Below are positions 3,186-62,821 of a stretch of DNA of 64,000 nucleotides, one piece after another (position 1 is the stretch's first letter; each line of letters starts with the position of its first letter). The notes below the pieces were generated by a model. It was not told where the DNA came from, did not search any database, and saw only the letters and a program-made list of their open reading frames with translations. The stretch is from Cyanobacteria bacterium GSL.Bin1. GTDB taxonomy: Bacteria > Cyanobacteriota > Cyanobacteriia > Cyanobacteriales > Rubidibacteraceae. The DNA is taken from the NCBI GenBank assembly GCA_009909085.1, contig JAAANX010000128.1, forward strand, positions 1-64,000, given 5' to 3'. Made by a program: the position numbers and the translations under genes.

Positions 3186-4463
3186 GTGTCTAAAAATATT
3201 TTTGTTGTTGGTCTCGACGAGTTTAATCTAGTAAAGCTCAAATCCCTACCCTGTGCAGCAGAATATAACTTTCATGCTTTGCTGCGCTATGAAGAGATTC
3301 GGGGTGTCAAGAGTTACTCGTTTCAAGAACTCTTAGACAAAGCAGAAGCTAAACTACAAGCGTTTAACGGAACGGTTGATGCAATTGTGGGCTATTTCGA
3401 TTTTCCGATTAGTGACATGGTACCGATGCTCTGTCGTGAACGGGGCTTAACCTCTGCTTCTCTTGAAAGTGTGGTCAAGTGTGAGCATAAATATTGGAGT
3501 CGGCTCGAACAAAAGCAAGCAATCCCAGAACATATTCCAGGTTTCGATCTCTTCGATCCGTTTGATGACAACGCACGGCAAAATATCTCACTGAATTACC
3601 CTTTTTGGATTAAACCGATTAAATCCTTTCGGTCTTTTCTGGGGTTTAAGATCAGTAATGAGCAACAATTTTATGAAAGTGTTGCGATTATCCGCGACCA
3701 AATTGAGAAGATTTCTGAGCCATTTAACGGCTTACTCGAATATCTCAATCTTCCCCAAGCCATTGCCAATATCCCCGGACGTTATTGTCTAGCCGAAGAA
3801 ATTATCACTGGTCGGCAATGCACCCTTGAGGGCTATGTTTTCCGGGGGGATGTTCATGTTTACGGTGTGGTCGATTCCATTCGCTATCCCAACAGTTCAA
3901 CCTTTTCTCGCTACCAATATCCCTCCAAGCTTCCCCAATATGCGCAAGAAGAAATGGCAGCAATTACAGAGCGCTTAGTCAAACAGATTGGCTATGATAA
4001 TGCCCCCTTTAATGTTGAGTTTTTTTATGACGAAAAACATAAAAAAGCATGGTTTTTAGAAATTAATCCTCGTATTTCTCAATCTCACGGTGACTTATTT
4101 GAAAAAGTAGATGGGACTCCTCACCACGAAATCATGATTGATTTAGCACTGGGCAATCAACCTGAATTTCCTCATCGAAAAGGAAAGTATAAGTATGCGG
4201 CTAAATTCCAAGAACGTCGGTTTCAAGATGGGCAAGTGCTTAAAGTACCGAGCCAATCAGAGATTGAAGCCTTACAACAAAAGATCCCCGATACCTTAGT
4301 CGATATTTTCGTCAGACCGGGAATGAGACTTTCAGAACTGGCGAATCAGGATAGTTACAGTTATGAAGTGGCAGATTTACTTCTGGGAGCAAACTCTCAA
4401 CACGAGTTATTAGAAAAACATCGTCAGTGCTTAGAAGCCCTGTCCTTTGAAATTTCCCCCTAA
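3186..4463 (+). CDS. ATP-grasp domain enzyme of unknown substrate
   Basis: A 425-aa protein of the carbamoyl-phosphate-synthase/biotin-carboxylase-like ATP-grasp superfamily, whose members ligate a carboxylate to an amine through an acyl-phosphate. Visible features are an N-terminal pre-ATP-grasp region (KNIFVVGLDEFNL), the lid and ATP-binding core (YPFWIKPIKSFRSFLGFK), and the metal-binding end FNVEFFYDE followed by WFLEINPRISQSHGD. The start is set at GTG 3186 because GAGG lies 9 bases upstream. The frame is open further up to 3003, but that stretch is the palindromic leader and encodes low-complexity sequence. A strong hairpin follows the gene. The substrate cannot be inferred; amino-acid or peptide ligase activity is one possibility. 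Confidence 0.8.
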   Translation: MSKNIFVVGLDEFNLVKLKSLPCAAEYNFHALLRYEEIRGVKSYSFQELLDKAEAKLQAFNGTVDAIVGYFDFPISDMVPMLCRERGLTSASLESVVKCEHKYWSRLEQKQAIPEHIPGFDLFDPFDDNARQNISLNYPFWIKPIKSFRSFLGFKISNEQQFYESVAIIRDQIEKISEPFNGLLEYLNLPQAIANIPGRYCLAEEIITGRQCTLEGYVFRGDVHVYGVVDSIRYPNSSTFSRYQYPSKLPQYAQEEMAAITERLVKQIGYDNAPFNVEFFYDEKHKKAWFLEINPRISQSHGDLFEKVDGTPHHEIMIDLALGNQPEFPHRKGKYKYAAKFQERRFQDGQVLKVPSQSEIEALQQKIPDTLVDIFVRPGMRLSELANQDSYSYEVADLLLGANSQHELLEKHRQCLEALSFEISP

Positions 4464-4477
4464 GACTCTTGCTTCAG

Positions 4478-4516
4478 CCTCCTCTCACCTTTGGTAAGAG
4501 GAGGCGCTGCTTTTTG
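4478..4516 (+). terminator. Rho-independent terminator after the ATP-grasp gene
   Basis: CCTCCTCT (4478-4485) pairs with AGAGGAGG (4497-4504) across an 11-base loop. A T5 run follows within about 10 bases. It lies 15 bases after the ATP-grasp stop codon. Confidence 0.75.
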
Positions 4517-4956
4517 GGAAGAATTGAGTATGCAGCATGTTTATCGTCAATTGTCAATGGTATTGCTAACGAGTGCTCAGATGCTTAACAAAAAATTCAT
4601 ATGAAGTCTGAATTATGTTGGCGAATCGTTTCCATGCTGAGTCACGAATTTTTAGGAGTTTGCTGGCTTAATTTAACTTTTTTCAATAAAAACCCCAATC
4701 CTCTTATATATAAATTAGCAAAAAAATGTTGATCTTTACATCCAGTTGCCTCAAATGCTGTCAATTCGTGGTTATTTACAAATCTAAATATAAACAAAAT
4801 AAATTAATATAATTTTTTTGTTTTGATTAACTTATAAAAACAACACAAAATATGCAGTAGAGAGAGCGAAGAAAAGAAGCCTAAAAAAATATTCAATTTT
4901 GAGGATTAACGATAAGCTATTATAAAAGTAACAAAATATTGCGAAACAGCATACTT
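4517..4956 (+). promoter_or_regulatory. Long AT-rich leader/promoter region of the RNA helicase gene
   Basis: About 440 bases without a gene, very AT-rich from about 4660 on (runs such as AATTTTTTTG near 4812). Cold- and redox-responsive helicase genes of the crhR type are known to have long untranslated leaders that take part in autoregulation, so this region probably contains both promoter and leader. I do not see a clear hairpin or a second ORF. Assignment as leader is an inference from position and family. Confidence 0.5.
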
Positions 4957-6360
4957 ATGACGATTTCTTTTCAAAGTCTAGGCATCTCTGAAGAAAGAGT
5001 ACAACAACTGGAGAAACTAGGCTTCGAGCAACCGACTAACGTCCAAGCACAAGCAATTCCCGAACTGTTAAAGGGAAAGGATGTCGTTGGTCAGTCCCAA
5101 ACGGGAACCGGAAAAACAGCAGCCTTTTCGCTGCCGATTCTAGAACAGATCGATGTTAAAGATACGGTCGTTCAGGCTTTGATTTTGACGCCGACGCGAG
5201 AGCTTGCCCAGCAAGTGGCGTCCGCGATGAAAAACTTTTCTCATGATCGCGCTCTGAAGATTTTAACCGTCTACGGCGGTCAATCGATTGACCGGCAAAT
5301 TCAAACCCTGAAGCGCGGCGTGCAAGTGGTTGTGGGCACTCCGGGACGGATTATTGATTTACTCAATCGTAAAGCCCTCCGTCTGGATACCCTGCGCTTT
5401 GTCGTTCTCGATGAAGCCGACGAAATGTTAAGCATGGGCTTTATTGACGATGTGCGGGAAATCTTAAGACAAGCTCCCGAACAACGACAAACTGCTTGTT
5501 TTTCTGCCACAATGCCCCGGCTGATTCAAGACTTGATTAATCAGTTCATGGATCATCCGGTGAGCTTGAAAGTCGAACAACCGAAAGGAACGCCCAACAA
5601 AATCGAGCAACGGGTTTATAAAATCCCTCGCGGCTGGACAAAAGTCAAAACCCTGCAGCCAATCTTAGCAGTGGAAAACCCAGAGTCAGCACTGATCTTT
5701 GTGCGCACGAAACGGACTGCCAGCGAAATCACCCAAGAACTACAAACCGCTGGTTACAGTGTCGATGAATATCATGGCGACCTCAGTCAAGGTCAACGCG
5801 AACGACTGGTGCAACGGTTTCGTAAAAATCAAGTGCGCTTTGTCGTTGCTACCGATATTGCCGCTCGCGGTTTAGATGTGGAAAATCTCTCCCACGTCAT
5901 TAACTTTGACCTTCCGGATAATATTGAAACCTATATCCACCGCATTGGACGCACGGGACGCGCCGGTAAAACGGGTATTGCCATCAGTTTAAGTCAATAT
6001 CGCGATCGGAATACTCTCCGTCAGATTGAACGCCGGTTACGTCAACGGTTGAATATCCTGTCAATTCCCAGCCGTGCTGAAATTGAAGCCCAACGCTTGG
6101 AGAAACTGCGGGAAGACTTACAAAATAGCCTTGGTGGCGAACGCATGGCTTCTTTCTTACCCTTAGTACGAGAACTGGGTGATGAATATGATGCCCACGC
6201 GATCGCGGCGGCAGCTTTACAAATGATTTACGATCAAAGTCGTCCCCAGTGGTTAGATGAAAACTGGCAAGATCCTCCTAGTGATCGGCCAAAGCCCAAA
6301 CCTCGGAACAAACGGAGTTCCAAGCCTTCAATTCGTTCTACCTCTGCTGAGCGTTCTTAA
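4957..6360 (+). CDS. crhR: DEAD-box ATP-dependent RNA helicase (CrhR/CsdA type)
   Basis: This 467-aa helicase unwinds or anneals RNA, and its relatives act in cold or redox stress and in ribosome and mRNA handling. All DEAD-box motifs are visible: Q motif (GFEQPTNVQAQAIP), motif I (SQTGTGKT, about 47-54), Ia (PTRELAQQ), II (DEAD, about 152), III (SAT), V (ARGLDV) and VI (HRIGRTGRAG). The C-terminal extension ends in a basic Lys/Arg/Ser-rich tail, as in CrhR. The start is taken as ATG 4957; a TTG 18 bases upstream is less likely. A DeaD/RhlE-like label is possible, but the length and leader fit the cyanobacterial CrhR group best. Confidence 0.9.
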   Translation: MTISFQSLGISEERVQQLEKLGFEQPTNVQAQAIPELLKGKDVVGQSQTGTGKTAAFSLPILEQIDVKDTVVQALILTPTRELAQQVASAMKNFSHDRALKILTVYGGQSIDRQIQTLKRGVQVVVGTPGRIIDLLNRKALRLDTLRFVVLDEADEMLSMGFIDDVREILRQAPEQRQTACFSATMPRLIQDLINQFMDHPVSLKVEQPKGTPNKIEQRVYKIPRGWTKVKTLQPILAVENPESALIFVRTKRTASEITQELQTAGYSVDEYHGDLSQGQRERLVQRFRKNQVRFVVATDIAARGLDVENLSHVINFDLPDNIETYIHRIGRTGRAGKTGIAISLSQYRDRNTLRQIERRLRQRLNILSIPSRAEIEAQRLEKLREDLQNSLGGERMASFLPLVRELGDEYDAHAIAAAALQMIYDQSRPQWLDENWQDPPSDRPKPKPRNKRSSKPSIRSTSAERS

Positions 6361-8611: not shown

Positions 8612-8953
8612 ATGATCAGTAAAAAACTTGCTTTCAGTTTCATCGCTGCCGTTGCTTTCGCGACTCCCGCTGCTGCTCAACAATCTCAAACCTCTGTCCA
8701 AAGCGCGAATACTAACAATGCGGCGGTCAACGGGTCGAGTGCCTTTTCTAACACTGAGCTTAATAATCAGCAAATTCAGTTGGAACGCGAGGGTTTCTAC
8801 CATCAAGATCCTCAAAGCCAAGTTTCCATCCAAGAGTCCAACACCAGCAATGCGGCGGTCAACGGGTCTAGCGCCTTCTCAAACACCGAGCTCAATAATC
8901 AGCAAGTACAAGTTGACTCCGAGGGCTACTACCCCTATCCCCTTGGCTACTAA
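8612..8953 (+). CDS. Small secreted protein with two curlin-like repeats (copy A)
   Basis: A 113-aa protein with a clean signal peptide (cleavage expected after ATPAAA, near residue 22). The mature part consists of two 31-residue units sharing NAAVNGSSAFSNTELNNQQ, at roughly residues 26-56 and 70-100, and ends in a Tyr/Pro tail (EGYYPYPLGY). The regular Ser, Asn, Ala and Gln spacing resembles curlin/CsgA repeats, so a beta-solenoid or amyloid-type extracellular fibre is plausible. No CsgB, E, F or G homologue is visible nearby. The Shine-Dalgarno AAGGAA is identical to that of copy B. It is the first gene of a probable five-gene secreted-protein operon. Function is unknown; the curli comparison is an inference. 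Confidence 0.8.
   Translation: MISKKLAFSFIAAVAFATPAAAQQSQTSVQSANTNNAAVNGSSAFSNTELNNQQIQLEREGFYHQDPQSQVSIQESNTSNAAVNGSSAFSNTELNNQQVQVDSEGYYPYPLGY
8828..8953 (+). repeat. 126-bp exact repeat, 3' end of copy A (partner at 9282-9407)
   Basis: By direct comparison, the last 126 bases of copy A, stop codon included, are identical to 9282-9407. The 5' halves of the two genes differ at many positions. The pattern points to recent gene conversion or unequal crossing over between the tandem copies. Confidence 0.9.
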
Positions 8954-9065
8954 GAGATTAACTTTTCTCGGGGAGCAAGTGCATAAGTGATTGTTCCCCA
9001 ACGTATCAAACAGTAACCTCATTATTCAACTATTTGTCAACAACTCACACCAAAGGAATTCAAAA

Positions 9066-9407
9066 ATGATTAGTAAAAAACTTGCTTTCGGTTTAATCGC
9101 TGCTATTGCTTTCGCCACTCCTGCTGCTGCTCAACAATCCCAAACCTCGGTTCAACGTGCCAACACTAACAACGCTGCGGTGAACGGGTCGAGTGCCTTT
9201 TCTAACACGGAATTGAATAATCAGCAAATCCAAAGCCAGCGCGATCGCTTTTTCAATCAAGATCCTCAAGGCCAACTTTCGATCCAAGAGTCCAACACCA
9301 GCAATGCGGCGGTCAACGGGTCTAGCGCCTTCTCAAACACCGAGCTCAATAATCAGCAAGTACAAGTTGACTCCGAGGGCTACTACCCCTATCCCCTTGG
9401 CTACTAA
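9066..9407 (+). CDS. Small secreted protein with two curlin-like repeats (copy B)
   Basis: A tandem paralogue of the preceding gene with the same 113-aa length, near-identical signal peptide and the same two NAAVNGSSAFSNTELNNQQ units. The spacer between units differs (QSQRDRFFNQDPQG). ATG 9066 is chosen because the sequence just upstream (AAAGGAATTCAAAA) repeats that of copy A. An in-frame TTG or ATG at 8991 would place 25 non-signal residues in front of the signal peptide. Its 3' end is identical in DNA to copy A. Expected to be exported and to act together with copy A. Confidence 0.8.
   Translation: MISKKLAFGLIAAIAFATPAAAQQSQTSVQRANTNNAAVNGSSAFSNTELNNQQIQSQRDRFFNQDPQGQLSIQESNTSNAAVNGSSAFSNTELNNQQVQVDSEGYYPYPLGY
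9282..9407 (+). repeat. 126-bp exact repeat, 3' end of copy B (partner at 8828-8953)
   Basis: The second copy of the repeat shared by the two tandem secreted-protein genes. Identity runs from the ATCCAAGAG motif through the stop codon and ends at the TAA. Confidence 0.9.
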
Positions 9408-9483
9408 ATTTTTTTGAGGTTTTACCGATTTCCTCAATTAAGACCCTTAAAAAATCGGGTTAACCCCATTTGGAACCACAAAA

Positions 9484-9924
9484 ATGCTAAAGAAAACTTG
9501 TTCTTTAAGTCTTGTTACCGCTGCTGCTATTATTTTTTCTCCATCTATTGTCTTCGCTCAGCCTTCACAGTTCAGTTCACAACAAATTAATACTAGCGCT
9601 ACAGCGACTGGAGAAGGCAGCACTGCAATTAATAACATCCACCAATCTAGTCATCAAAGACAGCGGGGAATGCGCTCAAATCATCAGTCACAGATTTCTG
9701 TACAACGGGTTGATGCGACGTCAGCAGCTTTGGGTAATAATGCCACTGCAATTAATAATATTCGCCAATTTAGTCGCCAAAGACAGCGGGGAATACACTC
9801 TAGACCACAGTCACAGAGTTCTGGGCAGCAGGTCAATGCGAATACGGCTGCTGCTGGTGATTGGAGCACCGCAATTACTAATCTAGAACAAAATAATAGT
9901 CAAAGTCAGTTTGATGTTCGATGA
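9484..9924 (+). CDS. Secreted protein with three Asn/Gln-rich curlin-like repeats
   Basis: A 146-aa protein with a signal peptide ending near SIVFAQ (about residue 26). Three units of roughly 41 residues follow. Each contains a core like INTSATATGEGSTAINN, VDATSAALGNNATAINN or VNANTAAAGDWSTAITN, and the first two have a basic RQRG-containing linker. The Asn-x-Ala and Gln pattern again resembles curlin repeats, though the sequence differs from copies A and B. It lies 76 bases downstream of copy B on the same strand. Probably an extracellular or outer-surface structural protein; no catalytic residues are apparent. Confidence 0.75.
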   Translation: MLKKTCSLSLVTAAAIIFSPSIVFAQPSQFSSQQINTSATATGEGSTAINNIHQSSHQRQRGMRSNHQSQISVQRVDATSAALGNNATAINNIRQFSRQRQRGIHSRPQSQSSGQQVNANTAAAGDWSTAITNLEQNNSQSQFDVR

Positions 9925-10021
9925 ATAAGAACCAACCATTCCTTCAAGATTATTTATTCCTCTCGGCATCATCTTAAAGTCAAACTATTAGCCTCTTTTC
10001 TCGAAGAGAAGGAGTAAACTC

Positions 10022-10363
10022 ATGCTTACTAAACAGTCAATTTTATTACTAGTCATTCCGACTTTGCTTACTTTACCGGTTGGAATTGCTAAAGCAGACA
10101 ACATTCATGTGCAAACTGACGATCAAACAGTGACAATCGATGACGATAACGGTATCACAATTGAATCAGGTCCTCAAGAAATGATCATTCCTCCAGAGTC
10201 ATCGCCTTCGCTCTCTCGTCGTTGGATTCTCAATCTTCCTAAGCCAAGGAAGTCTCCCTGGTGTCGAGAAAGAAGTTACACTCATCAAGATACTCAAACT
10301 AGCAATTCCTCTGCAGGAGTATCGCACACTCAAAGTTCTGTATCCATCCAAACCTGTCAATAA
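10022..10363 (+). CDS. Small secreted acidic/Ser-rich protein, unknown function
   Basis: A 113-aa protein with a signal peptide (cleavage near GIAKA, residue 25). A short acidic segment follows (TDDQTVTIDDDNGITIE), then a Pro/Arg-rich middle and a Ser/Thr/Gln-rich tail (SHTQSSVSIQTCQ) with one of two cysteines. The tail resembles half of a curlin-like unit. A good AAGGAG lies before the ATG. It sits 97 bases after the three-repeat protein and 38 bases before the next gene. I know of no family to assign. Confidence 0.65.
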   Translation: MLTKQSILLLVIPTLLTLPVGIAKADNIHVQTDDQTVTIDDDNGITIESGPQEMIIPPESSPSLSRRWILNLPKPRKSPWCRERSYTHQDTQTSNSSAGVSHTQSSVSIQTCQ

Positions 10364-10401
10364 ACTAACGCCAAGTAGAAACTTAAAAATAGGAGCTCAA
10401 A

Positions 10402-10797
10402 ATGAAATTGAAGATACTTTCGCTAGGCTTATTCTCCCTTTCCACTCTGTTACCTCTAACCCCTGCTATCACTTCTCAGGCGAATGCAGCTTGTGTTATG
10501 GTTGATACAAATACTCAAGTAGCGATTCACGGCTCCCAAAAACCGGCATCCCAAAGCAACAATGTTGAAATGCAAAGTGCAGAAGATTGCTTCGGAAATG
10601 TGACAGTCTCTAATGGCACTCAATCTTCTATTACTCCCGGAGAAGTGCAACAAAGCCGTAACAGCAGTCATTATGTTGGTGGTGGCATCGAAAATAGCCA
10701 TGGGCTCAGTGGACCCACCATCAGAGTTCCTGTCAGCACACAGGTCGATGCTTATAGCCCGGCTCACGATCCCAATGTTATCAATTTTGGAGAATGA
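10402..10797 (+). CDS. Small secreted Asn/Ser-rich protein, unknown function
   Basis: A 131-aa protein with a signal peptide ending near SQANAA (about residue 30). The mature part starts with ACVMVDTNTQVAIHG and has two cysteines (about 31 and 63) that could form a disulfide. It continues with Asn, Ser and Gln stretches (ASQSNNVEMQ, GEVQQSRNSS). AGGAG precedes the ATG. It is the last gene of the small-protein series before the 811-aa gene, from which 168 bases separate it. It is probably exported with the preceding proteins. No known domain is recognised. Confidence 0.65.
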   Translation: MKLKILSLGLFSLSTLLPLTPAITSQANAACVMVDTNTQVAIHGSQKPASQSNNVEMQSAEDCFGNVTVSNGTQSSITPGEVQQSRNSSHYVGGGIENSHGLSGPTIRVPVSTQVDAYSPAHDPNVINFGE

Positions 10798-10965: not shown

Positions 10966-13401
10966 GTGACAGAAGAGGATTATTTAACTATTACCAGATT
11001 ACCCATGGATACTAATTTTCTTACGCCCCAACTATCGTTACAAGAATCATTTGTCTTTGAAGGAACTGGGAATGTTATTTTTCAAGACTTAAATCAATTG
11101 CTTACCTTTGTTCCAATTACTATTCCTGATTCTTTTGAGCAAGACGAAGCATTACAAGCTTCTCTTCAGGCAATTACCGAAACTAAAAATGATAATAATC
11201 TTCTAACCATTGAACAAACCTCACCGCAGTCTGAGCAATCTGGCGAGAAGAAAGACAATAACAATGATGATCGCGCAACTGTTACCAACACCGGCACTGA
11301 CGAGCAAAGCACCTCACCAATTCAGCTCAGTTTTCAAACCGTTGATTTGCTAGGGGACGATAATACGATTCAACAAGAAAGTCAACAGCTAGTCGCCGAT
11401 CTATTTTTCTTTGAAGAAGAAAGGAGCGACTTAGGAGATTTTTTTGAGAGTGTCGCTCAGGATTTATTGCTCAGTTCATTACAATTTGCCTTTCAGGATA
11501 TCATCATTGAAGGCGACGATAATTTTATCGAGCAGAGTATCAATCAGACAATTACAGCGTTTGTCTTTTTAGATGAAGAAGAGATTATCAATAACACTAA
11601 CTTTACACAGGTATCGATTCCGGAAATATTTCTTGGTGATGGCACGACTGTTGTTGATGATAATTTAATCAGTCAAGATACAACGCAATCAATTGCGCTC
11701 AATCTTAACTTTAGCGATGAGCCCATAATCTCCAATAATGGGGAGGGACAAATTGACGTCTTATCTGACTTCCCTATCGATACATTAATCAATGAGATTA
11801 TTAGTGAAGAAATATTGGAAATTGCAACGCAAACTAGTTTCCAAGATGCTTTTATTACCGGAGATAATAATTTTATTATTCAGGAAGAGATTCAAGAACT
11901 TCTCCCGAATGTCTTCTCCGAAGAAATCGCCAGCAAGCTTACTGATGCAACTAAAGATGCCAAAATTCAAACTTTGGTAAAAAACTCAGTTGAGAACGTT
12001 ATTAATAGTGAAGATGACAATGTTTTTGGTCAAACAGAGGTTTTCCTAGAGGGACGTCGTGAACAAGTTCGGACTGAAGAAACGAATCTCGGTAACTTAA
12101 CCGCTGATGCCAACCTTGCAGCTGCCCAATCTGTAGATGAAAGCGTTAGGGTCTCTCTTATCAACAGTGGTGGAATTCGTACTGCCATTGGTGAAGTTGA
12201 CGATCATGGGCAACTCTTACCGCCTCCGAGGAATCTAGAGACTGGCAAAGAAGAGGGACAAATTTCTCAATTTAATATTGTCAACAGTCTTCGTTTTAAT
12301 AATGATCTCACTCTGCTCACCGTAACTGCCCAAGAGCTGGAACTCCTCTTAGAACATAGTGTAGCAGCGACCAAAGAGGGCGCGACTCCCAGCCAGTTTC
12401 CCCAAGTGAGTGGTTTGAGCTTTAGCTTTGATCCCAGCCAGCCAGCGATCGCGTTTGATGAGCAAGCGAATATCCTAACTGAAGGAGAACGTATTCAGAG
12501 TCTTTCGATTCTCAATGCAGATGGCAGTGTCCATGATGTCATTGTTGAAGAGGGTAACTTAATCGGCGATCCAAGCCGTGAGATTCGCCTAGTCACCTTA
12601 GACTTTCTTAGCGGGACCTTCTCCGACAGCGACTTTATTGGCGGAGAGGGCTATCCATTCCCGGCTTTTGCTGAAGATGTTGTCAATTTAAGTGAGGTTC
12701 TAACTGATCAGGGGCAAGCGACATTCGCAGATCCCGGTAGTGAACACGATGCTCTCGCTGAGTTCTTAGTTGAAAACTTCCCAATCGGTGGCAATGTTGC
12801 CTTTAATCAAGCTGAAACACCTCCTACTAAAGATGAGCGTATCATCAATTTGTCTGTGCAAAATAATGAATTCCACCGCCCTGATTCGCCAGTCCTAAAA
12901 GAACCGGGAATATTTGACCTCACAAACGAGGAGGTATTTGGACCAGCCGGAGAGGTCGTTACTGCCCATTTAGCCTCTGAGGTAATTTCTCGTGGAGTAT
13001 TTAATAACTTGGTGGGCTTCTATACCGTGGCTGATAAAGCTGGTGGCATTGATACAGATGATGATGGGATCGCCGACCTGACACCGGGGGAGGACGGATA
13101 TACAGAAGCCGCCTTGGCCAATGCCGAGGATGCTATTCTCAAACGAGGACAAACTGGATCCATTGAGTTGACCTCAGGAGAGATTGTGGTGCCCTTCTTA
13201 CTCGCACGAGGGGGAGACCTTGATGAAATTCCAACAGAACTCCCGGAAGGCATTCAAGCGTACTTCCCTTATCTCGCTGCTAACACCGATGGTGCAGACC
13301 ACTTCCGTCTTTTAAGTGACAACACCCTTGGCATTGAAGACTTGGAGGGGGGCGGCGACCAAGACTTTAACGACCTCATCTTCCAATTAGATTTTGCTTA
13401 A
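10966..13401 (+). CDS. Secreted multidomain protein: curlin-like repeats, 5'-nucleotidase C-terminal-like region, DUF4114
   Basis: An 811-aa acidic protein without an N-terminal signal peptide, as in many type I-secreted cyanobacterial proteins. Residues 1-360 hold about six degenerate units built on a GDDN-x-I-x-Q core (LLGDDNTIQQ, IIEGDDNFIEQ, ITGDNNFIIQ). Residues about 365-620 resemble the C-terminal domain of 5'-nucleotidases (NLGNLTADA, SLINSGGIRT), but the catalytic metallophosphatase domain is absent. The last 120 residues match DUF4114, ending in HFRLLSDNTLGIEDLEGGGD. The start is uncertain: GTG 10966, or ATG 11005 thirteen codons later. It shares the repeat logic of the small secreted proteins upstream, suggesting a common extracellular structure. 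Confidence 0.7.
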   Translation: MTEEDYLTITRLPMDTNFLTPQLSLQESFVFEGTGNVIFQDLNQLLTFVPITIPDSFEQDEALQASLQAITETKNDNNLLTIEQTSPQSEQSGEKKDNNNDDRATVTNTGTDEQSTSPIQLSFQTVDLLGDDNTIQQESQQLVADLFFFEEERSDLGDFFESVAQDLLLSSLQFAFQDIIIEGDDNFIEQSINQTITAFVFLDEEEIINNTNFTQVSIPEIFLGDGTTVVDDNLISQDTTQSIALNLNFSDEPIISNNGEGQIDVLSDFPIDTLINEIISEEILEIATQTSFQDAFITGDNNFIIQEEIQELLPNVFSEEIASKLTDATKDAKIQTLVKNSVENVINSEDDNVFGQTEVFLEGRREQVRTEETNLGNLTADANLAAAQSVDESVRVSLINSGGIRTAIGEVDDHGQLLPPPRNLETGKEEGQISQFNIVNSLRFNNDLTLLTVTAQELELLLEHSVAATKEGATPSQFPQVSGLSFSFDPSQPAIAFDEQANILTEGERIQSLSILNADGSVHDVIVEEGNLIGDPSREIRLVTLDFLSGTFSDSDFIGGEGYPFPAFAEDVVNLSEVLTDQGQATFADPGSEHDALAEFLVENFPIGGNVAFNQAETPPTKDERIINLSVQNNEFHRPDSPVLKEPGIFDLTNEEVFGPAGEVVTAHLASEVISRGVFNNLVGFYTVADKAGGIDTDDDGIADLTPGEDGYTEAALANAEDAILKRGQTGSIELTSGEIVVPFLLARGGDLDEIPTELPEGIQAYFPYLAANTDGADHFRLLSDNTLGIEDLEGGGDQDFNDLIFQLDFA

Positions 13402-31492: not shown

Positions 31493-33187
31493 TTACCGTT
31501 TTTCTTCTGGGGTTAGATTCCGAGATTGGGCAATTTTGAAACTCAAGAAAATCACCGGAATAATGCCAACCAGAATAATGGTTAATGCGGGTGCGGCGGC
31601 TTCAATTAACCGTTCATCAGAGGCATATTGATACACTTGAACAGCGAGGGTATCAAAATTGAAAGGACGAATCAGTAAGGTGGCTGGGAGTTCCTTCATC
31701 ACATCGACAAAGACTAACATGACGGCCGTTAAAATTCCTCCCCACATTAACGGCGTATGAACGTGCAACAAGGTACTGCTTACATTATGTCCTAAACTTC
31801 TCGACGCCTCATCCAAACTAGGTTTAATTTTCTGTAAACTGGATTCTACCGCATTAAAAGAAACCGCAAGAAAGCGCACAAGATAGGCAAAAATCAAGGC
31901 GACAATCGTTCCACTGAGGATTAATCCTGGCGAGACATCAAATGTCGCTCGCATCCAGTTATCAATGGCTTTATCGAGGCGCGTCACCGGGATTAACACC
32001 CCGACAGCAATGACAGTTCCGGGAATGGCGTAACCCATAGCGGAGATACGAACACCAACATTGAGTAACCAGGATTTACCTTGACGTTGTCCGTAAGCTA
32101 AAAAGAGCGCGATCGCGCTGGCTAATAGGGCACTAATCACCGCTAAAATCAGGCTATTTTGAGCAATATCCCAAAAACTTTGATTCAGAGTATGTTCCGC
32201 ATTAGCAAACGTTAAATAGACCAGATAAATCCCAGGAACCATAAATCCGAAAGCAATGGGAAACAGGCAAGCTAAAATTGCCAAAAAAGCGCGGCTTCCA
32301 GACAGTTGGTGTTTCGGTGGGGCTTGAAAACTCCCGCCGGCTTGATAATAGCGGGCTTGGCTACGAGATAAACGTTCCAGGAGAATTAAAACGGCAATAA
32401 ATAGCATTAATACCGCTGCCAGTTGCGCTGCTGCTAGGCGTTCGCCCATGCCAAACCACGTGCGATAAATTCCGGTCGTAAAGGTAGTCACCCCAAAATA
32501 TTGCACGGTGCCAAAATCCCCCAAGGTTTCCATTAAAACTAAGGCGACTCCCGACGCGATCGCGGGACGGGCTAAGGGTAGGGCAACGGTAAAGAAACTG
32601 CGCCAGGGATTACACCCCAGACACCGACTGGCTTCTAACATTCCGGTGGCTTGTTCGAGAAACGCTACCCGCACCAGCAGATAAACATAGGGGTATAAAA
32701 CCAAAATCAGCATCGCGATCGCGCCCCAAATGTTGCGAATCTCGGGGAACCAGTAATCATTCACACTCACCCAGCCAAAAACAGATCGCAGTGCAGTTTG
32801 AACGGGACCAAAAAAGTCCAGGAGATGCGTATAGGTATAAGCCAAGAGATACGCTGGCGCAGCGAGGGGGAGTAATAACGCCCATTCTAGAATCCGACTT
32901 CCCGGAAAGCGACACATGGTCACTAACCAAGCGGTTCCCACCCCAATGAGAGAAACCCCTAAACCGACACCAACCATCAGTGTAAAAGAGTTTTGGAGAT
33001 ATTCTGGCAGCACTGTCGTTGCTAAATGTTGCCAAATCTCTCCGGTTTCTGCGAAGACACTGGCAACAATGAAGAGAATCGGGGTAGCAATTAAGAGTGC
33101 AACCAGTAACACACCCACTGTCCAAGGATTGAACAGCGCTTGACGAACTTGTTGGCGAGTTTGGGAAATCACAGAGAACACAGGCAA
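31493..33187 (-). CDS. futB: Iron(III) ABC transporter permease (FutB-like)
   Basis: A 564-aa inner-membrane permease with two fused permease halves, each with about six helices. The two EAA loops that dock the ATPase are visible: EASRCLGCNPWRSFFTVALP and DEASRSLGHNVSSTLLHVHT. The length and double-permease plan are those of FutB/SfuB/HitB ferric transporters. It converges on the caspase gene with 34 bases between stops. No binding protein or ATPase gene is adjacent. A diverged fragment of the same kind of gene occurs at 37025-37229 on the same strand. Confidence 0.88.
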   Translation of the reverse strand: MPVFSVISQTRQQVRQALFNPWTVGVLLVALLIATPILFIVASVFAETGEIWQHLATTVLPEYLQNSFTLMVGVGLGVSLIGVGTAWLVTMCRFPGSRILEWALLLPLAAPAYLLAYTYTHLLDFFGPVQTALRSVFGWVSVNDYWFPEIRNIWGAIAMLILVLYPYVYLLVRVAFLEQATGMLEASRCLGCNPWRSFFTVALPLARPAIASGVALVLMETLGDFGTVQYFGVTTFTTGIYRTWFGMGERLAAAQLAAVLMLFIAVLILLERLSRSQARYYQAGGSFQAPPKHQLSGSRAFLAILACLFPIAFGFMVPGIYLVYLTFANAEHTLNQSFWDIAQNSLILAVISALLASAIALFLAYGQRQGKSWLLNVGVRISAMGYAIPGTVIAVGVLIPVTRLDKAIDNWMRATFDVSPGLILSGTIVALIFAYLVRFLAVSFNAVESSLQKIKPSLDEASRSLGHNVSSTLLHVHTPLMWGGILTAVMLVFVDVMKELPATLLIRPFNFDTLAVQVYQYASDERLIEAAAPALTIILVGIIPVIFLSFKIAQSRNLTPEEKR

Positions 33188-36295: not shown

Positions 36296-37028
36296 CCAAT
36301 TCAGAATTAGCATAAGTCGTGTTCGTGACCTAATCTCTCTTGACGATGCTATCAAAACAAAAGTGACTAATGCTGTAGATTTATCAGACTTACTCAGAGC
36401 AGCCTTAGTTCTAGCAGTAAGTGCATTAGACTTTTATATTCACGAAGTTGTTAGATTAGGAATGTTAGAAATCCATCGAGGGATAAGACCAGAGCCTAGC
36501 ATTGGAGCTAATGCAATTCAATCAGCCTTTTCACGCTTTAGAGTTTCTTTAGGAAATGCTCGTCAGGATAGGGTTATAGCTACTGATATTAATTCTTGGT
36601 TAGAGTTAGAGATTCAGCAAGCCTACGGAAATGAATTTCTAAATCAATCTCATCGTATTTCTAGTTTACTTCCTGTATTATCGAACAGTATTTTTAATAA
36701 ACTGAATAGTACATCTTGGTTAGAAGATGAAATCAGAAGCCAACATTCTTATAAAAGTTTCCAACAACCTGAAAAAATAGCAGAGGCAATGAGACTAATC
36801 TCTGATAAAAAACTCTGGGATGAAGTTGCAATTTAAATGGGAAAATCTGCTAAAGATGTTAAACAAGAGTTAAGTCTGATGGTGGATCGTAGGAACAAAA
36901 TTGCTCACGAAGCAGATATAGATCCAACACTAGGATTAGGAAACCGCTGGGAAATTGACCAAGTTGAAGTTAGCGAAGCTGTCGATTTTATCGAACAAGT
37001 TGTAGAAAGCATTCACAATATTCTTTAA
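36279..37028 (+). pseudogene. RiboL-PSP-HEPN-type gene interrupted by an in-frame stop
   Basis: Two frames in the same phase abut exactly: 36279-36836 (185 aa, ending LWDEVAI, TAA) and 36837-37028 (63 aa, from ATG). Read together they give a RiboL-PSP-HEPN-like protein of about 249 residues. The presumed RNase motif RRNKIAHEAD (R-x4-H) lies in the second part. A single TAA therefore separates the motif from the main body. It might be a nonsense mutation, translational readthrough, or a re-start at the abutting ATG (TAAATG). It overlaps the upstream ParA-type gene, indicating a two-gene unit. Domain assignment is by motif and general layout. Confidence 0.7.
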
Positions 37029-37229
37029 TCCTGGGCAAGCATCAAAAGTTTGCCCGCATCTAGTTATCAATGGCTTGATCAAGGCGTGTTACAGGGATTA
37101 AAAACCCAACTGCAATGACGGTTCTGGGAATAGCGTAACCCATCGCGCAAATGCCGACGCCAAGGTTGAATAACCAAGATTTCCCTCAATTAATGTTGTC
37201 CATAGGCTAAAAAGAGCGCGATCGCGCCA
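37025..37229 (-). pseudogene. Decayed fragment of a futB-like permease gene
   Basis: About 205 bases align with 31921-32123 inside futB, in the same orientation. Both begin TTAATCCTGG and both end AAAAAGAGCGCGATCGCGC. By eye about three quarters of positions agree, and there are short indels (for example 4 extra bases near 37190) that break the frame. It corresponds to roughly residues 355-422 of the permease. The divergence suggests a lost paralogue rather than a recent duplication. It begins directly at the stop codon of the HEPN gene, so the toxin island may have been inserted into, or recombined with, this second permease gene. Confidence 0.85.
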
Positions 37230-51183: not shown

Positions 51184-52223
51184 GAAGGAGAATGAAACCC
51201 TCAGTGCGTGAAGTTGGAATTAACCCGAATCATTGGTATGTTGTCGCCCGTAGTAGCGAAGTTACAACAGACCCATATCCGGTTACCCTGTGGAAACAAC
51301 CAATTGTTCTCTACCGTCAAAGCGATGGACAAGTTTGCGCTTTAGAAGACCGCTGTCCCCATCGTTTTGTCAAACTCAGCAACGGGAAAGTGCAAGGCGA
51401 TCGCGTAGAATGTGCTTATCACGGTTGGCAATTTAATGCTGAGGGGAAATGTGTTTCTATTCCTTATCTAAGCGAGAAGCAAAAGTTACCCCCTTGTCAG
51501 CTTCGTCTGTATCCCGTTCAAGAAGGCGATGGTTTTATTTGGATTTTCCTCGGGGATGAAACCCCAACCGTTCCGCGTTTCCAAGTTCCGGAATGGGATC
51601 ATCTCAACTATATTGCAACCGTTTCGGTGATTGAAACGCAAGCCCATTATTCTTATCTCATTGAAAACTTGATGGATATGTATCATGGGCATTTACACGA
51701 AGATTGGCAAGCCTGGACAGATGCGAAGTTAGAAAATATTGAGGAAGATGAAACTCAAGTTCATGGCTACTATAACGCCCAGAGTTATTACAGAATTGAT
51801 AAAATTTGGTCGATTTCACAACTGTTTTTCCCCAGTTTACGGCAATTGCATCCAGAACCGTTAACGGTAAGCTATATCTATCCCCATTGGGTTTCGACGT
51901 TGGGGGAGGATTTCAAAATTTACTGTCTCTTTTCTCCCATTCATGAAACGGCAACTCGTGCCTATCTCATTCACTTTACTTCCCTCAATGCCTTTTGGCG
52001 ATTGCATAAACTGCCAATTTGGTTTCGCCGTGGCTTGAAAAATGCCCTCTTTGGTTCGGCGCAAAAGCTGTTAGATGGCTTAGTGCGTCAAGATGTAACG
52101 ATGATTGAACAAGAACAAGCTGCATTTTTAGAAAATCCAGACCAAAAAGGGTATGAGTTTAACCCCGTTTTGGGGAGTGTGCAACGATTGATTCGTAAGC
52201 AAGCCTCGGAAAATGAAGATTAA
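51180..52223 (+). CDS. Rieske [2Fe-2S] aromatic-ring-hydroxylating/demethylating oxygenase
   Basis: A 347-aa oxygenase subunit. The Rieske cluster ligands are Cys59-His61 (RCPHRF) and Cys78-His81 (CAYHGW). The mononuclear iron site is suggested by ENLMDMYHGHLHEDW at about residues 163-177. The plan resembles VanA-type demethylases and Pao-like oxygenases. A ferredoxin reductase is not adjacent, so electrons come from elsewhere. Met1 or Met5 could be the start. Its end overlaps the convergent 769-aa gene by 4 bases. Confidence 0.88.
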   Translation: MRRRMKPSVREVGINPNHWYVVARSSEVTTDPYPVTLWKQPIVLYRQSDGQVCALEDRCPHRFVKLSNGKVQGDRVECAYHGWQFNAEGKCVSIPYLSEKQKLPPCQLRLYPVQEGDGFIWIFLGDETPTVPRFQVPEWDHLNYIATVSVIETQAHYSYLIENLMDMYHGHLHEDWQAWTDAKLENIEEDETQVHGYYNAQSYYRIDKIWSISQLFFPSLRQLHPEPLTVSYIYPHWVSTLGEDFKIYCLFSPIHETATRAYLIHFTSLNAFWRLHKLPIWFRRGLKNALFGSAQKLLDGLVRQDVTMIEQEQAAFLENPDQKGYEFNPVLGSVQRLIRKQASENED

Positions 52224-54529
52224 TCCACTTTGGTGCGAAAGCGAATAAAGCCATAAGACTCGGGTGGGTCGCCTGAGGAAGTAGCAGGAGGTAAAGTTGT
52301 TGGATTCGTTACCACATCAACAACCACTAAACCATTGGTATTATCATCAGCCTCTAAAGATTCAAATGAGCCAGGTTTTTTACACTCACTTGGAGGTGTC
52401 CTGCCAGGATCGAAAAAAGACCCTTCGTCATCGCCATCGAGATTAGTTAGGTACTGATTAGGAGTAAGCGGATTGGGTAAGGGATTGGTTTCTCGAATTA
52501 ATGCTGCAATTCCTAAATTTGTTCCCCCCCCTGGGCTATCAAAGGAATCTCTGATATAAGTTTGATGCTCAGAAATTAAATCGCAGATGGTCACATTTCT
52601 CGCCGCTTGTCCTCCAGAAGAAAGATAGTAGATTGTATATTCAATTTCGTCACCGGGTTCTACTTCCCCACCATCTATTCCTCCAGTTAAATAGGTATTT
52701 TTATCGGGCCACAAAGAACTGTCATCAGCACTGTCACTATCCCCATCTTCATTAAATTGACTTAAATCATCCCCCCCCTTTGTAGCGGTTTGCCCGTTGA
52801 TTGCCGTAATGCGCTTAACCAGTTGTAACTGAGGAGGTAAACAATCTGCTCCCCGGGTAATCCCAGAAGCCGCGTCGGCATCAATATTGATGGCTAAGCC
52901 AGTACCTTGTTGACCGTCAAAGTTGGGAGGATTGGCATTGCCGTTGGGACCGGTCGAACCGGCTAATCCGCCGTCTAACCCTCCAGAGGCAATGGTCACA
53001 GCAGAATTTGTGCTGACAACAACCCCGCCGCCGCCCCCGCCGCCAGGGCCATGAGCCGGATTAAAATTAGACCAACCGCCATCGCCTCCTCTCACATCAA
53101 CTGTGATGTTAGATAAATTTGCCGGATCTTGAAGATCAACATAAACAGTACCGCCAGCTCCCCCTCCTCCAGCGCCATCTTGCCCGGCACTTAAGCCTGG
53201 CGCCCCTTGCGCGTGAATGGTTCCGTTCCCAGCAACAGTAGCAGCACGAATAATGATAATGCCACCCCCGGCAGCGCCACTACTGTAAATGCCATTGCCA
53301 ACATTTTGGTTTTGGTCGGTAATAGCCGTTCCATCTGAGTTTGTTCTTCGATCGGTCGCTTGGCTGCCGTTGTTGGTTGTGCCGGCGCCGCCACCTCCTC
53401 CCATAAACAATCGTTGACCGCCATTGATAATAGAAGGGTTAAACCCTTTCCCGCCAAAACCGCCGGTTGGATCTTGAGAATTCCAAGCGCGACCGCCGCG
53501 GCCCCCGCCGCCGCCATTACCGCCGCCCCCGCCGCCAGAGTTTTCAGCGTTGTTACTGGGAGTGCCATCAGTACTGCCTCCTCCAGCGTTACCAGGGGCA
53601 CCTCGGGCATAACTTCCGTTGGGATAGCCTTCGACACTATTATCGGTAAAGGTTGGCGGGGTTGCAGGGTTGAAAGCGCTGTCTAAATTAAAGGGATCAA
53701 AGTAATTGAGAACATAGCGGGGCGTGCCGGCAATTCCTTCGCCTTTAGATCCGTTGGTTGTTGCTGTTGCGGGAGTGCGATAGTCCGTATCGCTGAAACC
53801 GCTTGCTCCTGACAATTGCCGTCCGGCTCCGCCGCGAAAGCCGGTGCCGCTAGCTTCGAGAACCACACCGCCATTAAGAGTTAACTCTCCAGAAACATCA
53901 ATCACAAATACGCCGCCGGTGGTTCCATTCCAGGGTTCGGGCCCGCCCCCAGATAACGTGGCATTGGTATATTGAGGAACACGGATGATTTGATAGCTGC
54001 GACGACCGTGGGCAGCGGTTGCCGATTCGTTGCGATAGGTGTAGATCAGCCCCCCATTGGGGCCATTAATCTCAATGGTATTGCCTGAAACATTGGTTAC
54101 GGTGACAAATTCATAACGACCGGCATTATTTAAGTTCGTCCAACCGCTAGCCCCTTGTGAAGGTTGGGAGTCGGGAAAAGTAGGAACATCCCCTGGTGTA
54201 TTGTCTCCATAAGCGTCAGTATTGGAACTGTTAAAATCGGCATCTTGCATCTGGATAATTAATAGCAAATCGCCCACACTAATATCGGGGGCAGTGGACG
54301 GAAACTTTGAGCCCACAGTGATCGTAGTTGCGCCAGCATTAATGGTTCCAGACACTGAACTGTAGTAAGTGTTCACATTGGCATTGACTGTCCCCTCGCC
54401 ATCTTTTCCCGGAGTAGCACACTGCGTTGGCGTTGCTTGCGCCGATATCTGAGAAAAGTTGCCAGGATAAATCATAAAGGCAATCACAGCTAAGAAGAGG
54501 ATGAGTAGCTTTGATAAAAATTTCATCAC
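52220..54529 (-). CDS. Secreted glycine-rich surface protein
   Basis: A 769-aa protein with a signal peptide (LLILFLAVIAFMIYPG, cleavage near ISAQA). The first 270 residues are beta-rich (INAGATTITVG, VSVGDLLLIIQ-like). Residues about 280-545 are strongly glycine-rich (GGGGGNGGGGGRGG, GAAGGGIIII), as in passenger or surface-layer proteins. The C-terminal 200 residues resemble a DUF11-type module (EVEPGDEIEYTIYYLSSGGQ). It is the last gene of the six-gene surface operon. Predicted location is the outer surface; no enzymatic motif is seen. Confidence 0.75.
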   Translation of the reverse strand: MMKFLSKLLILFLAVIAFMIYPGNFSQISAQATPTQCATPGKDGEGTVNANVNTYYSSVSGTINAGATTITVGSKFPSTAPDISVGDLLLIIQMQDADFNSSNTDAYGDNTPGDVPTFPDSQPSQGASGWTNLNNAGRYEFVTVTNVSGNTIEINGPNGGLIYTYRNESATAAHGRRSYQIIRVPQYTNATLSGGGPEPWNGTTGGVFVIDVSGELTLNGGVVLEASGTGFRGGAGRQLSGASGFSDTDYRTPATATTNGSKGEGIAGTPRYVLNYFDPFNLDSAFNPATPPTFTDNSVEGYPNGSYARGAPGNAGGGSTDGTPSNNAENSGGGGGGNGGGGGRGGRAWNSQDPTGGFGGKGFNPSIINGGQRLFMGGGGGAGTTNNGSQATDRRTNSDGTAITDQNQNVGNGIYSSGAAGGGIIIIRAATVAGNGTIHAQGAPGLSAGQDGAGGGGAGGTVYVDLQDPANLSNITVDVRGGDGGWSNFNPAHGPGGGGGGGVVVSTNSAVTIASGGLDGGLAGSTGPNGNANPPNFDGQQGTGLAINIDADAASGITRGADCLPPQLQLVKRITAINGQTATKGGDDLSQFNEDGDSDSADDSSLWPDKNTYLTGGIDGGEVEPGDEIEYTIYYLSSGGQAARNVTICDLISEHQTYIRDSFDSPGGGTNLGIAALIRETNPLPNPLTPNQYLTNLDGDDEGSFFDPGRTPPSECKKPGSFESLEADDNTNGLVVVDVVTNPTTLPPATSSGDPPESYGFIRFRTKVD

Positions 54530-54531
54530 TT

Positions 54532-56061
54532 TTAGTCAAGTTCGTTCGATTTAATTGAATGCCGATCTCCCGAACCCCGCGAAAGGGGAATGGGATAAGA
54601 TTGGGCAATTTCTTGGATTAAAATTTCATCGGCCGGTTCAGATGTGCCATAGTCGGGATGGGTCGCGATCGCGCTCAATCTTGCTCCTTGTTCGATATCG
54701 TTTAACTCAAAGCTAAATTTGCCATCCACATCAGCTTTTGTGGTTGCAATGGGTGCAAGCAGAGGGGGTGGTGCATTATTCTTGCTTTCACCGACGCGGT
54801 AAAGGGTAACTTCTGAATTAGGATCGGCAGTGCCATCGAGATAAACCGTGTTATTAATCAGATAAAATTCTGGGGCTAAAAATTCTGGCGTCGCGATCGC
54901 GCGATTGGCAGTATCACGATTGCGATTAAGAGAGTTGCGCGGGGGATTTTTTCCATCGCCGTTGTCGTAGGCGCGGACAGTGCTTTCCCGGCGCGTGATT
55001 AAATCAATACTTAACCCGTCTAAGTTTTCAAATCGATTCCCTAAAATAATATTGCGCAGACTTTTCGGGACTGCTGCCACAACCACGCCAGCCCCCTTAG
55101 GATGGTCAATCGTGTTATTGAGGACTTGGTGATCGCTGCCCATTAAATAAATCGCAGCTTGCGCCCGACGTTGGCTATTATTCACAATTTGATTGTTTTT
55201 AATTACCGTTGCGCCTTCGGGTTGAAACAGATAAATCCCGCTGCCTCCATTGTGGGCAATTCGGTTATTGTCAATTCTTGTGCCGTTGATCTTACCTTCT
55301 AAGCGGATGCCATCAGCCATTCCTCGCTGTCCATTTTGCGCAATTGTGTTATCAGCAAGGGTGAAATCAGTGCTCTTGACCATCGTTAAAATGCCACTGC
55401 CTTGATGCTGACGAATTTGGTTATAGCGGACGGTGACCTTCTCTCCGGCAAAGATAACCACCCCAAAGGAAGATCGCTTTTGGGGAGAAGGGGTATCCGG
55501 GGAAACCCCCAGCCAGTTCCGCTCAATTCTCACGCCCTTTGGCGGGGAATTCTCATTAGGATCTGGAGGAGCAACTAAAATATCGGCCGCTGGAAATCCT
55601 TGCTGATCGGCTTTGCCCTGAAAGCCATAGAGACTGAAGCCCCGAACGGTAATATTATCGCCGGCAATGGTCAAGCCTTGAGCAATTATTGCGCCTGGGG
55701 CGGGGGTAAGTGTGATGGCAGGAGTAGCCCCAGTGGGCGCACCTTGAAGAGACAACCCAATTCGAGTCAGAGGCGGCAGTTTGCGGGTGAGTTCAATTTG
55801 TTGCCCCTGAGGAGAGCGTTGAAACTGGATGCGCCAGTTTTGTTCCGCTGGCAGCGGGCTGATTTGCTGACGTTCTGCTGTCGTGAGTTCAGCAACAGTT
55901 AAGGAACCGTTACTGAGCGCGATCGCTTCTCTCAGGGTGAGGTTGGTATCCGGCGCGATCGCGTCTTGATTGCTGTTGACGGTGATGGCAAGCGGCGGTT
56001 GCGCGAGACTTTCTGTCGCGAACAAAAGTACCGTTAAATAGCCGAATAACCCATATTTCAT
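54532..56061 (-). CDS. Secreted parallel beta-helix protein
   Basis: A 509-aa protein with a signal peptide (LTVLLFATESLAQP). Early is the segment ITVNSNQDAIAPDTNLTLRE, similar to CSLREA/choice-of-anchor starts. A right-handed beta-helix of NosD/PbH1-type repeats follows (VRGFSLYGFQGKADQ, IRIDNNRIAHNGGSGIYLF-like, VVAAVPKSLRNIILGN). The last 100 residues form an Ig-like domain (TADPNSEVTLYRVGESK). It lies 12 bases after the barrel gene and 2 bases before the next, so they are co-transcribed. Probably an adhesin or carbohydrate-binding surface protein. Confidence 0.78.
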   Translation of the reverse strand: MKYGLFGYLTVLLFATESLAQPPLAITVNSNQDAIAPDTNLTLREAIALSNGSLTVAELTTAERQQISPLPAEQNWRIQFQRSPQGQQIELTRKLPPLTRIGLSLQGAPTGATPAITLTPAPGAIIAQGLTIAGDNITVRGFSLYGFQGKADQQGFPAADILVAPPDPNENSPPKGVRIERNWLGVSPDTPSPQKRSSFGVVIFAGEKVTVRYNQIRQHQGSGILTMVKSTDFTLADNTIAQNGQRGMADGIRLEGKINGTRIDNNRIAHNGGSGIYLFQPEGATVIKNNQIVNNSQRRAQAAIYLMGSDHQVLNNTIDHPKGAGVVVAAVPKSLRNIILGNRFENLDGLSIDLITRRESTVRAYDNGDGKNPPRNSLNRNRDTANRAIATPEFLAPEFYLINNTVYLDGTADPNSEVTLYRVGESKNNAPPPLLAPIATTKADVDGKFSFELNDIEQGARLSAIATHPDYGTSEPADEILIQEIAQSYPIPLSRGSGDRHSIKSNELD

Positions 56062-56073
56062 GAATTGTCTCCC

Positions 56074-59000: not shown

Positions 59001-59592
59001 TGAGGGTGGTGGGCTTGGCTCTGACGCTCACCTCAACCGCAACTGGCGGCAGGGGCTTACCTTTGAGGGTGCCTCGGGCAGTAATTCGGTTTTGACCGGT
59101 GTTTAAAGTGACCCCGTACCACGTTTGCAGCACGAGGTTCGTGCGGTCGTCCTTCGCCACCCGACCAATCAGAGAATCATCAACCGTTTGCTCGTTCACC
59201 ATTAAGGTTACTTCTGCCCCGATGGGATATTGCAGAATAACCGTTGTCGAGGGAATATCCAGCACTTGCCCCTCGGTGGGCGCAATTAATTTGAGGGGGG
59301 ACTCTGCTACGGTTTCAACCGATGGCGAGGAGGGGAGCAGCTCAGCGCTAAAACTGCCCAATTGCAAGGTGTTATCCCATTGCCAGTTCCCTTGATTCGG
59401 CAGGGGCACTGGCGTCGTTGCTAAATCAGCAGAAAATTGCCAAGGGGTTGGTGTAAGGGTGAATTGGCTAGAGTCATTCATGACTAGCGGCTTCCCTTGC
59501 ACTGGCAAGACAGTGCCGAAGCAAGCGATACTTGTGATGCTCATCCCCAAACTGATTTGTTTGACCAGAAGATAGAGGCGCTGACAGCTCAT
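56074..59592 (-). CDS. Predicted outer-membrane beta-barrel protein with Ig-like N-terminal domains
   Basis: A 1172-aa exported protein with a signal sequence (ISLGMSITSIACFGTVLPVQG). A domain with IGAEVTLMVNEQTVDDS is followed by a Big-1-like Ig domain (AAIPADGRTTATVKGSLLDE, about 215-300). From about 330 on there are many alternating amphipathic strands rich in aromatic residues (GEWQYTGAFNSDDPLN, LRFRYERQENEGV, ARGGTSYSVGISYTD-like). It ends with a short strand finishing in LMDLF. This fits a large outer-membrane barrel. It overlaps the 810-aa DUF11 gene by 4 bases (ATGA), so the products are made together; the barrel may export or anchor the DUF11 proteins. That role is an inference. Confidence 0.72.
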   Translation of the reverse strand: MSCQRLYLLVKQISLGMSITSIACFGTVLPVQGKPLVMNDSSQFTLTPTPWQFSADLATTPVPLPNQGNWQWDNTLQLGSFSAELLPSSPSVETVAESPLKLIAPTEGQVLDIPSTTVILQYPIGAEVTLMVNEQTVDDSLIGRVAKDDRTNLVLQTWYGVTLNTGQNRITARGTLKGKPLPPVAVEVSVRAKPTTLTLETVAAIPADGRTTATVKGSLLDENNQRSNYNAVITLDSSAGEFVGADAKPDAPGFQVEAKQGQFTAELQAGVTAQTVRIQARTIDLEGFTSLRFEPVLRDQPLATGYLDFRLGNSGANFYDSLREFVPLDEETHTELDVTGAAFITGALGEWQYTGAFNSDDPLNRDCCGEAPLMRTFDETNEVYPVYGDNATVDVITPSTDSVFFRIERASPVENAEIDYAMWGDYSLQAFSEESQDFSAFSRTLHGFNGSYNWGNVQLSGFYATNVEGFQRDIIAPDGTRGDYFLSRRDLVEGSEEIYLEIEALERPGTPLQRERLSRGRDYQIDYDRGVIFFDRPQQRTFVNDEGRVLVRKIVATYEFDGDGEAANLLGGRLKYYWSRTPNQESWLGTTYIEQNRGEQDFALFGVDALISWGENNAIIAEYAHSRHENTEFGDMSGSAYRIEANTEFWDGVNSRAYLESTDTGFNNNATSSFVPGQTRYGLEVNGQVTATTNLRFRYERQENEGVAPRPLLAFGDLITPRTEPVPGSRVDNRLTTLTAGLQQRIGDANLTLDWIYRDREDKIAPNALSSNSQQLRSFLDVPLGEKLSLQAINTTTLSAETDAVFSDQTGLGFSWEFHPSLFLNVSQTWYTRGSLAGESITNVGIQGEHEFASNTKIRGGYALNGSTEEMTGVGNFGIEQGIVLAPGLKVDLGFEHVFTDEDRFQSSRGVQFSQPYAVGSGSSSLGSRGGTSYSVGISYTDSPDFNASLRWENFSGRDRDNTVISASASGQISPALTAVVDYNRTSSANQRLDLGPRTTLKLGLAYRDPTSDTFNALLRYEYRKNPSQIPETLLIDRGTGSEEHLFGIEGIYAPNWQWEFYGKFALRNSATYLAEDFTGTSHVTLTQLRTTYRFGEEFDLVGEIRWINQPSAAFSEIGFVAEVGYMLSPNLRLAGGYVFGEVDDRDFSGVRSADGAYLGVTVKLQGLMDLF

Positions 59593-62021: not shown

Positions 62022-62091
62022 CCCCTTCTCTACCTGGCTCTACCTGTGATCTGACCGGTTGCCCCTTGCGAGAAGGGGCATTGTCAATGGT

Positions 62092-62667: not shown

Positions 62668-62821
62668 AAGTCTATATCCTGTTAAGTTATTGCAAATTAA
62701 GGTCTGAAGGAATGACCAGTCACCAGAGCTGAGAGATGACCCTCAAGCCTCAGGTGATCAAAACTGAATGAGGTTTCGGAAGGAAACACCCGAAAATGGC
62801 AACTGGTCACTTAATTAGGAA
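62668..62821. other. Gap between DUF11 genes
   Basis: 154 bases without an ORF. It includes palindrome-like AGTGACC/GGTCACT segments near 62715-62810 (GACCAGTCACC and ACTGGTCACTT), which could pair as a small hairpin. Possibly an intra-operon attenuator. Confidence 0.35.

Follow-up and report, generated by a model that had tools for sequence, protein, structure and literature searches.

A conserved cyanobacterial cluster of small exported glutamine-repeat proteins: a candidate extracellular fibre or matrix system distinct from curli

The genes at positions 8612–10797 of a 64,000-nucleotide stretch of DNA from Cyanobacteria bacterium GSL.Bin1 (contig JAAANX010000128.1, forward strand; the whole stretch is referred to as the window) represent one copy of a multi-gene cluster that is conserved in cyanobacteria and has no name so far. 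The cluster has a slightly better than even chance of encoding an extracellular fibre or matrix system that is curli-like and at the same time distinct from curli. The genes and their downstream neighbour are as follows, with repeat units assigned by the unit HMM.

8612–8953, forward strand: gene A, 113 residues, family R, two units at 8678–8779 (residues 23–56) and 8810–8911 (residues 67–100)
9066–9407, forward strand: gene B, 113 residues, family R, two units at 9132–9233 (residues 23–56) and 9264–9365 (residues 67–100)
9484–9924, forward strand: gene C, 146 residues, family R, units at 9562–9663 (residues 27–60), 9685–9786 (residues 68–101) and 9805–9909 (residues 108–142)
10022–10363, forward strand: gene D, 113 residues, charged N-terminal half and a Ser/Thr/Gln-rich C-terminal part of the type Cys...Cys, exported-type protein
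10402–10797, forward strand: gene E, 131 residues, mature from about residue 31, two conserved cysteines, five predicted beta strands
10966–13401, forward strand: gene F, 811 residues, 5'-nucleotidase C-terminal domain and DUF4114, no signal peptide by inspection

The five open reading frames A to E are arranged head to tail on one strand and encode small proteins of the secreted type, so that the five tandem genes claimed in an earlier note on this DNA are all present. The intergenic gaps calculated from the coordinates are 112 bp (A–B), 76 bp (B–C), 97 bp (C–D) and 38 bp (D–E). By inspection, each of the five products begins with basic residues followed by a hydrophobic stretch, an A-x-A-type cleavage site and a polar mature part, as is typical of Sec-type signal peptides; a signal peptide had likewise been assigned to every gene in the earlier note. 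In protein E a cysteine adjoins the cleavage site, yet a lipobox is missing. Promoter-like and terminator-like sites are no more frequent at the cluster than in shuffled sequence, and the status of the genes as an operon is therefore judged from their spacing and synteny. Gene F is probably located outside the conserved part of the cluster. Its N-terminal half contains several GDDNxIxQxxxQ stretches with weak matches to the R-unit model (E-value of 3e-6 in all), and it was dropped as a candidate component since no counterpart of it recurs next to the other E loci.

Conservation of the gene order across genomes, which had been proposed as a check, was found on examination of the neighbourhoods of 65 E loci. 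Same-strand R genes are present at 53 of these loci, with one to six R genes per locus, and the usual order is R(1–6)-D-E, often followed by two further genes, G and H, with spacings that are mostly below 300 bp. The arrangement at 8612–10797 is R-R-R-D-E. Gene D occurs at 38 of the 65 loci, most often directly upstream of E, and E itself is nearly always single per locus. Gene G (30/65 loci) encodes an exported protein in which a Ser/Gln-rich linker precedes a domain of about 100 residues that looks beta-rich. The protein encoded by H (13/65 loci) resembles R in an N-terminal stretch and further contains a conserved 'NTENDFGFNLS..NTLDASNVTVYLGIIFQPGRT' block and a probable coiled coil. Ten E loci are solitary; the majority belong to a single family of the order, whose genomes contain the R genes dispersed at other sites. 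Neither a transporter nor an outer-membrane channel recurs in the neighbourhoods of the E loci. Another small exported family of about 137 residues, ending in 'LGNxLAW', is found directly downstream of E in five loci (L108, L112, L113, L114 and L115), Picosynechococcus and Crocosphaera included. Upstream of the cluster in locus L139 an RTX protein (3531–5129 of that locus) matches the R model, and R-like units may also be found within large secreted proteins.

With protein A alone as query, no relative was detected in assembled genome contigs, and among 60 relatives only the GSL.Bin1 genome itself was matched. The first impression gained from this single-protein search, namely that family R is confined to the GSL.Bin1 genome, was overturned by a profile of A, B, C and their paralogues, which finds relatives in 17 of the 391 genomes of the order. 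Gene E as query is present in 94 of the same 391 genomes, and its profile reaches other orders of the class as well (25 of 291 evenly drawn genomes). Named carriers are Picosynechococcus sp. PCC 7117, Crocosphaera watsonii WH 8501, several Nostoc and Pleurocapsales, and every named match is a cyanobacterium. In Picosynechococcus sp. PCC 7117, a tractable host, the arrangement is R-E. Gene E is held by 16 of the 17 R-positive genomes as compared to 94 of 391 overall (Fisher p of 6e-10, uncorrected for phylogeny). The relatives are multi-copy and exported, so that the single-copy intracellular homologues named as counter-evidence in the earlier note did not appear. Neither A to E nor members of the families R, D, E, G and H chosen from other genomes yielded a Pfam or NCBIfam match over cut-off; curated matches over cut-off were obtained solely for the neighbouring gene F and for the RTX protein in locus L139. 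Weak Pfam matches to FXR_C3 and SlpA_D2 lie below the cut-offs and were taken as composition artefacts. In the open-licence literature neither a description of the cluster nor experimental data on any of its members were found.

Within the GSL.Bin1 genome, protein A as query retrieves further copies of its gene from contigs 82, 71 and 210, while contigs 100 and 180 contain broken ones; a second E gene is located, together with G, at the end of contig 32. The A paralogues are under strong purifying selection, with a dN/dS of about 0.07–0.16 for the dispersed copies. Among the intact paralogues dS amounts to 0.38–1.33 and dN to about 0.045–0.18, and this combination of low dN and high dS identifies the A-type open reading frames as real genes. 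Proteins A and B are 89% identical; the two genes differ at 37 positions within the first 216 bases and at none of the last 123, which suggests recent gene conversion. The lone A copies on contigs 82, 210 and 100 adjoin a GNAT acetyltransferase-like gene, and the two genes were apparently duplicated together. The copy on contig 100 is split by inserted DNA bearing transposase-like genes.

The internal repeat of protein A has a lag of 44 residues (match score of 164, best of 300 shuffles 54) and that of protein C a lag of 41 residues (match score of 170, best of 300 shuffles 52). The three 41-residue units earlier described for C are thus borne out, while the two 31-residue units given for A and B apply to the conserved core but not to the spacing, which is 44. 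Each R unit consists of two long arms of about 14–17 residues that flank a G-x-x-N turn. In 113 R proteins, glutamine peaks around this motif at positions -14 (58%), -10 (76%) and -6 (42%) and beyond it at +7 (56%), +11 (59%) and +15 (58%). With glutamine at every fourth residue, one face of a predicted strand would carry it at alternate positions. The full composite pattern of glutamines is found in 52 of the 113 proteins, compared to a mean of 0.2 in shuffled sequences. Between R and E no homology is detectable by hhalign.

The AlphaFold model of mature A, calculated from an alignment of 71 sequences, contains strands at residues 4–17, 21–37, 48–61 and 65–81, at a pLDDT of 57 and a pTM of 0.36. 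Each unit has two of these strands, and its turn coincides with the motif. A beta-arch would fit this model, whose confidence is too low to establish a solenoid; of the fold check proposed in the earlier note, the strand-turn-strand arrangement of each unit came out, though at low confidence. CsgA homologues reach a mean pLDDT of 83 (Sleutel et al., PMC10192328), and in the same work low confidence is described for some curlin monomers too, these being disordered until they assemble (PMC10192328). Mature E is modelled with five strands at a pLDDT of 88 and a pTM of 0.72. Genes D and E had been regarded as short companions of the repeat proteins, and both indeed encode small exported proteins, but E is the most widespread part of the cluster and has a confident model of its own. 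A fold search with the A model gave no significant PDB match. The same holds for the E model in Foldseek, and VIA yielded Z values below 2. The top Foldseek match of E is FapC, the Pseudomonas functional amyloid, with an E-value of 0.13, far from significant, and another FapC entry at rank 4. HET-s and bactofilin are also among the insignificant top matches, which were not counted as evidence. Searching the PDB sequences with profiles of R and of E, and with individual members, returned nothing useful.

Secreted repeat proteins and conserved synteny make a role in an extracellular fibre or matrix plausible, as had been proposed, whereas the curlin label did not hold as a statement of membership. 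More tentatively, with somewhat less than an even chance, the cluster may constitute a widespread but undescribed cyanobacterial functional-amyloid system with its own repeat class, a nucleator or cap E of possibly new fold, the partners D, G and H, and no curli component. Judging from the signal peptides, the R, D and E proteins would be exported by Sec. The R proteins (A, B and C) would be the subunits, whose strand-turn-strand arches could stack and be held by ladders of glutamine side chains, as the glutamine pattern and the model suggest; they would cross the outer membrane and polymerise by end-to-end addition of arches, as curlin does. From synteny, E is the best candidate for a nucleator, cap or anchor because it is small, hardly ever present more than once per locus and modelled with confidence. 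The conserved neighbourhood likewise points to accessory steps for D, G and H, which might comprise nucleation, capping, surface attachment or subunit solubility.

Alternatively, the R proteins could be secreted without polymerising, for instance as soluble adhesins or as polysaccharide-binding or sheath-associated proteins, their Q/N-rich repeats binding glycans or ions instead of building fibres. This would fit the presence of just two units in most members, the low AlphaFold confidence and the variable linker and C-terminus, which are Tyr/Gly-rich in some lineages and Cys/Arg-rich in others. The very regular glutamine register at same-face positions, the strand-turn-strand pattern and the tandem R copies beside a single D–E set argue against such proteins, and we regard this explanation as unlikely. 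That the proteins stay inside the outer membrane, with a structural or stress role in the periplasm or cell wall, is distinctly improbable: it would account for signal peptides solely of the Sec type and for the lack of a recurring outer-membrane exporter in the cluster, whereas the low-complexity polar composition and the type of repeat appear typical of extracellular matrix proteins.

The extracellular fibre or matrix system preferred here shares with curli small Sec-exported subunits with internal repeats, tandem subunit genes, two predicted strands around a G-x-x-N turn and Gln/Asn ladders. Furthermore, the variable copy number of R beside a single D and E recalls curli genomes with many csgA copies (PMC10192328). 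In contrast, the unit spacing is about 38–50 residues in most R members and 23 ± 5 in curli (PMC10192328, PMC3521004), and most R members contain two repeats as compared to 4–62 in curlin (PMC10192328). The 14–17-residue arms with glutamine at every fourth residue likewise differ from the N-x-psi-x-psi-x-Q of curli, and the partners D, E, G and H are unrelated to those of curli, of which CsgE and CsgF are missing.

The Curlin_rpt model (PF07012) is matched neither by A to C nor by any of the 71 family members, and it is over cut-off in none of the 60 relatives. The curlin kernel has been published as N-x-psi-x-psi-x-Q-x-G-x-x-N-... (PMC10192328) and as X6QXGX2NX10 (PMC3521004). Of the three kernels tested in the 113 R proteins, NX5QXG is the sole enriched one, about twofold (29 proteins, shuffled mean 15.4), while QXGX2N is not enriched (18 proteins, shuffled mean 15.6) and X6QX10Q is depleted (37 proteins, shuffled mean 80.4). 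The Ser/Asn-x-Ala/Gln spacing that the earlier note had considered similar to CsgA is therefore a loose resemblance. CsgE and CsgF were each found in none of 20 genomes, GSL.Bin1 included, while both models detected the E. coli control. The window was correctly described as free of csgG, csgE and csgF; the one CsgG-family gene of the genome is located on contig 35 (8101–8916 of locus L020), surrounded by unrelated genes and unlinked to the cluster, and its product has a signal-peptide-like start without a lipobox cysteine. Of 60 relatives, 18 contain a CsgG-family gene, as do 5 of 13 E-positive genomes, with no association between CsgG and E (p of 0.50). Because PF07012 is not matched, the kernels are hardly enriched, CsgE and CsgF are absent and CsgG is unlinked, the cluster falls outside the curli system in its defined form. 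Diverged curli in the strict sense, with R as CsgA/CsgB exported via the CsgG homologue, could draw on the shared turn, ladder, Sec-exported subunits and tandem genes and on the existence of a CsgG-family gene, yet is highly improbable in view of the unmatched Curlin_rpt, the depleted and unenriched kernels, the missing CsgE and CsgF and a CsgG neither linked to the cluster nor associated with E.

The nearest known cyanobacterial parallel, also a cluster of small secreted proteins, is formed by the EbfG proteins, which bear double-glycine leaders, whereas A to E start with Sec-type signal peptides as judged by inspection; the distinction drawn here between the two systems refers to leader and transporter. 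In Synechococcus elongatus, EbfG1–4 are small secreted proteins encoded in an operon, of which EbfG1–3 form amyloid and EbfG4 is found on the surface and in the matrix, and their secretion involves PteB, a transporter of the C39 peptidase family (PMC9981879). No such C39 peptidase transporter, nor any other transporter, recurs among the neighbours of the E loci.

Mats, sheaths and biofilms of cyanobacteria are of ecological importance, and few of their matrix proteins are known. Gene E, found in about one quarter of the genomes sampled from the order and lacking a curated family assignment, provides a concrete genetic target. The cluster also poses the question of how Gram-negative cells without CsgG-type curli export could pass aggregation-prone subunits through the outer membrane, and the R repeat offers a new glutamine-ladder repeat for the design of protein fibres.

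Elsewhere in the window, a stretch of about 200 bases occurs at 31921–32118 and 37025–37227 with 80% identity, once inside a permease-like gene and once in an intergenic position. On the reverse strand, 52220–63889 holds a run of large exported proteins with surface-protein-like repeats; one is beta-helix-like and another, of 1172 residues, is likely to be an outer-membrane protein, and this region looks like another cell-surface gene cluster.
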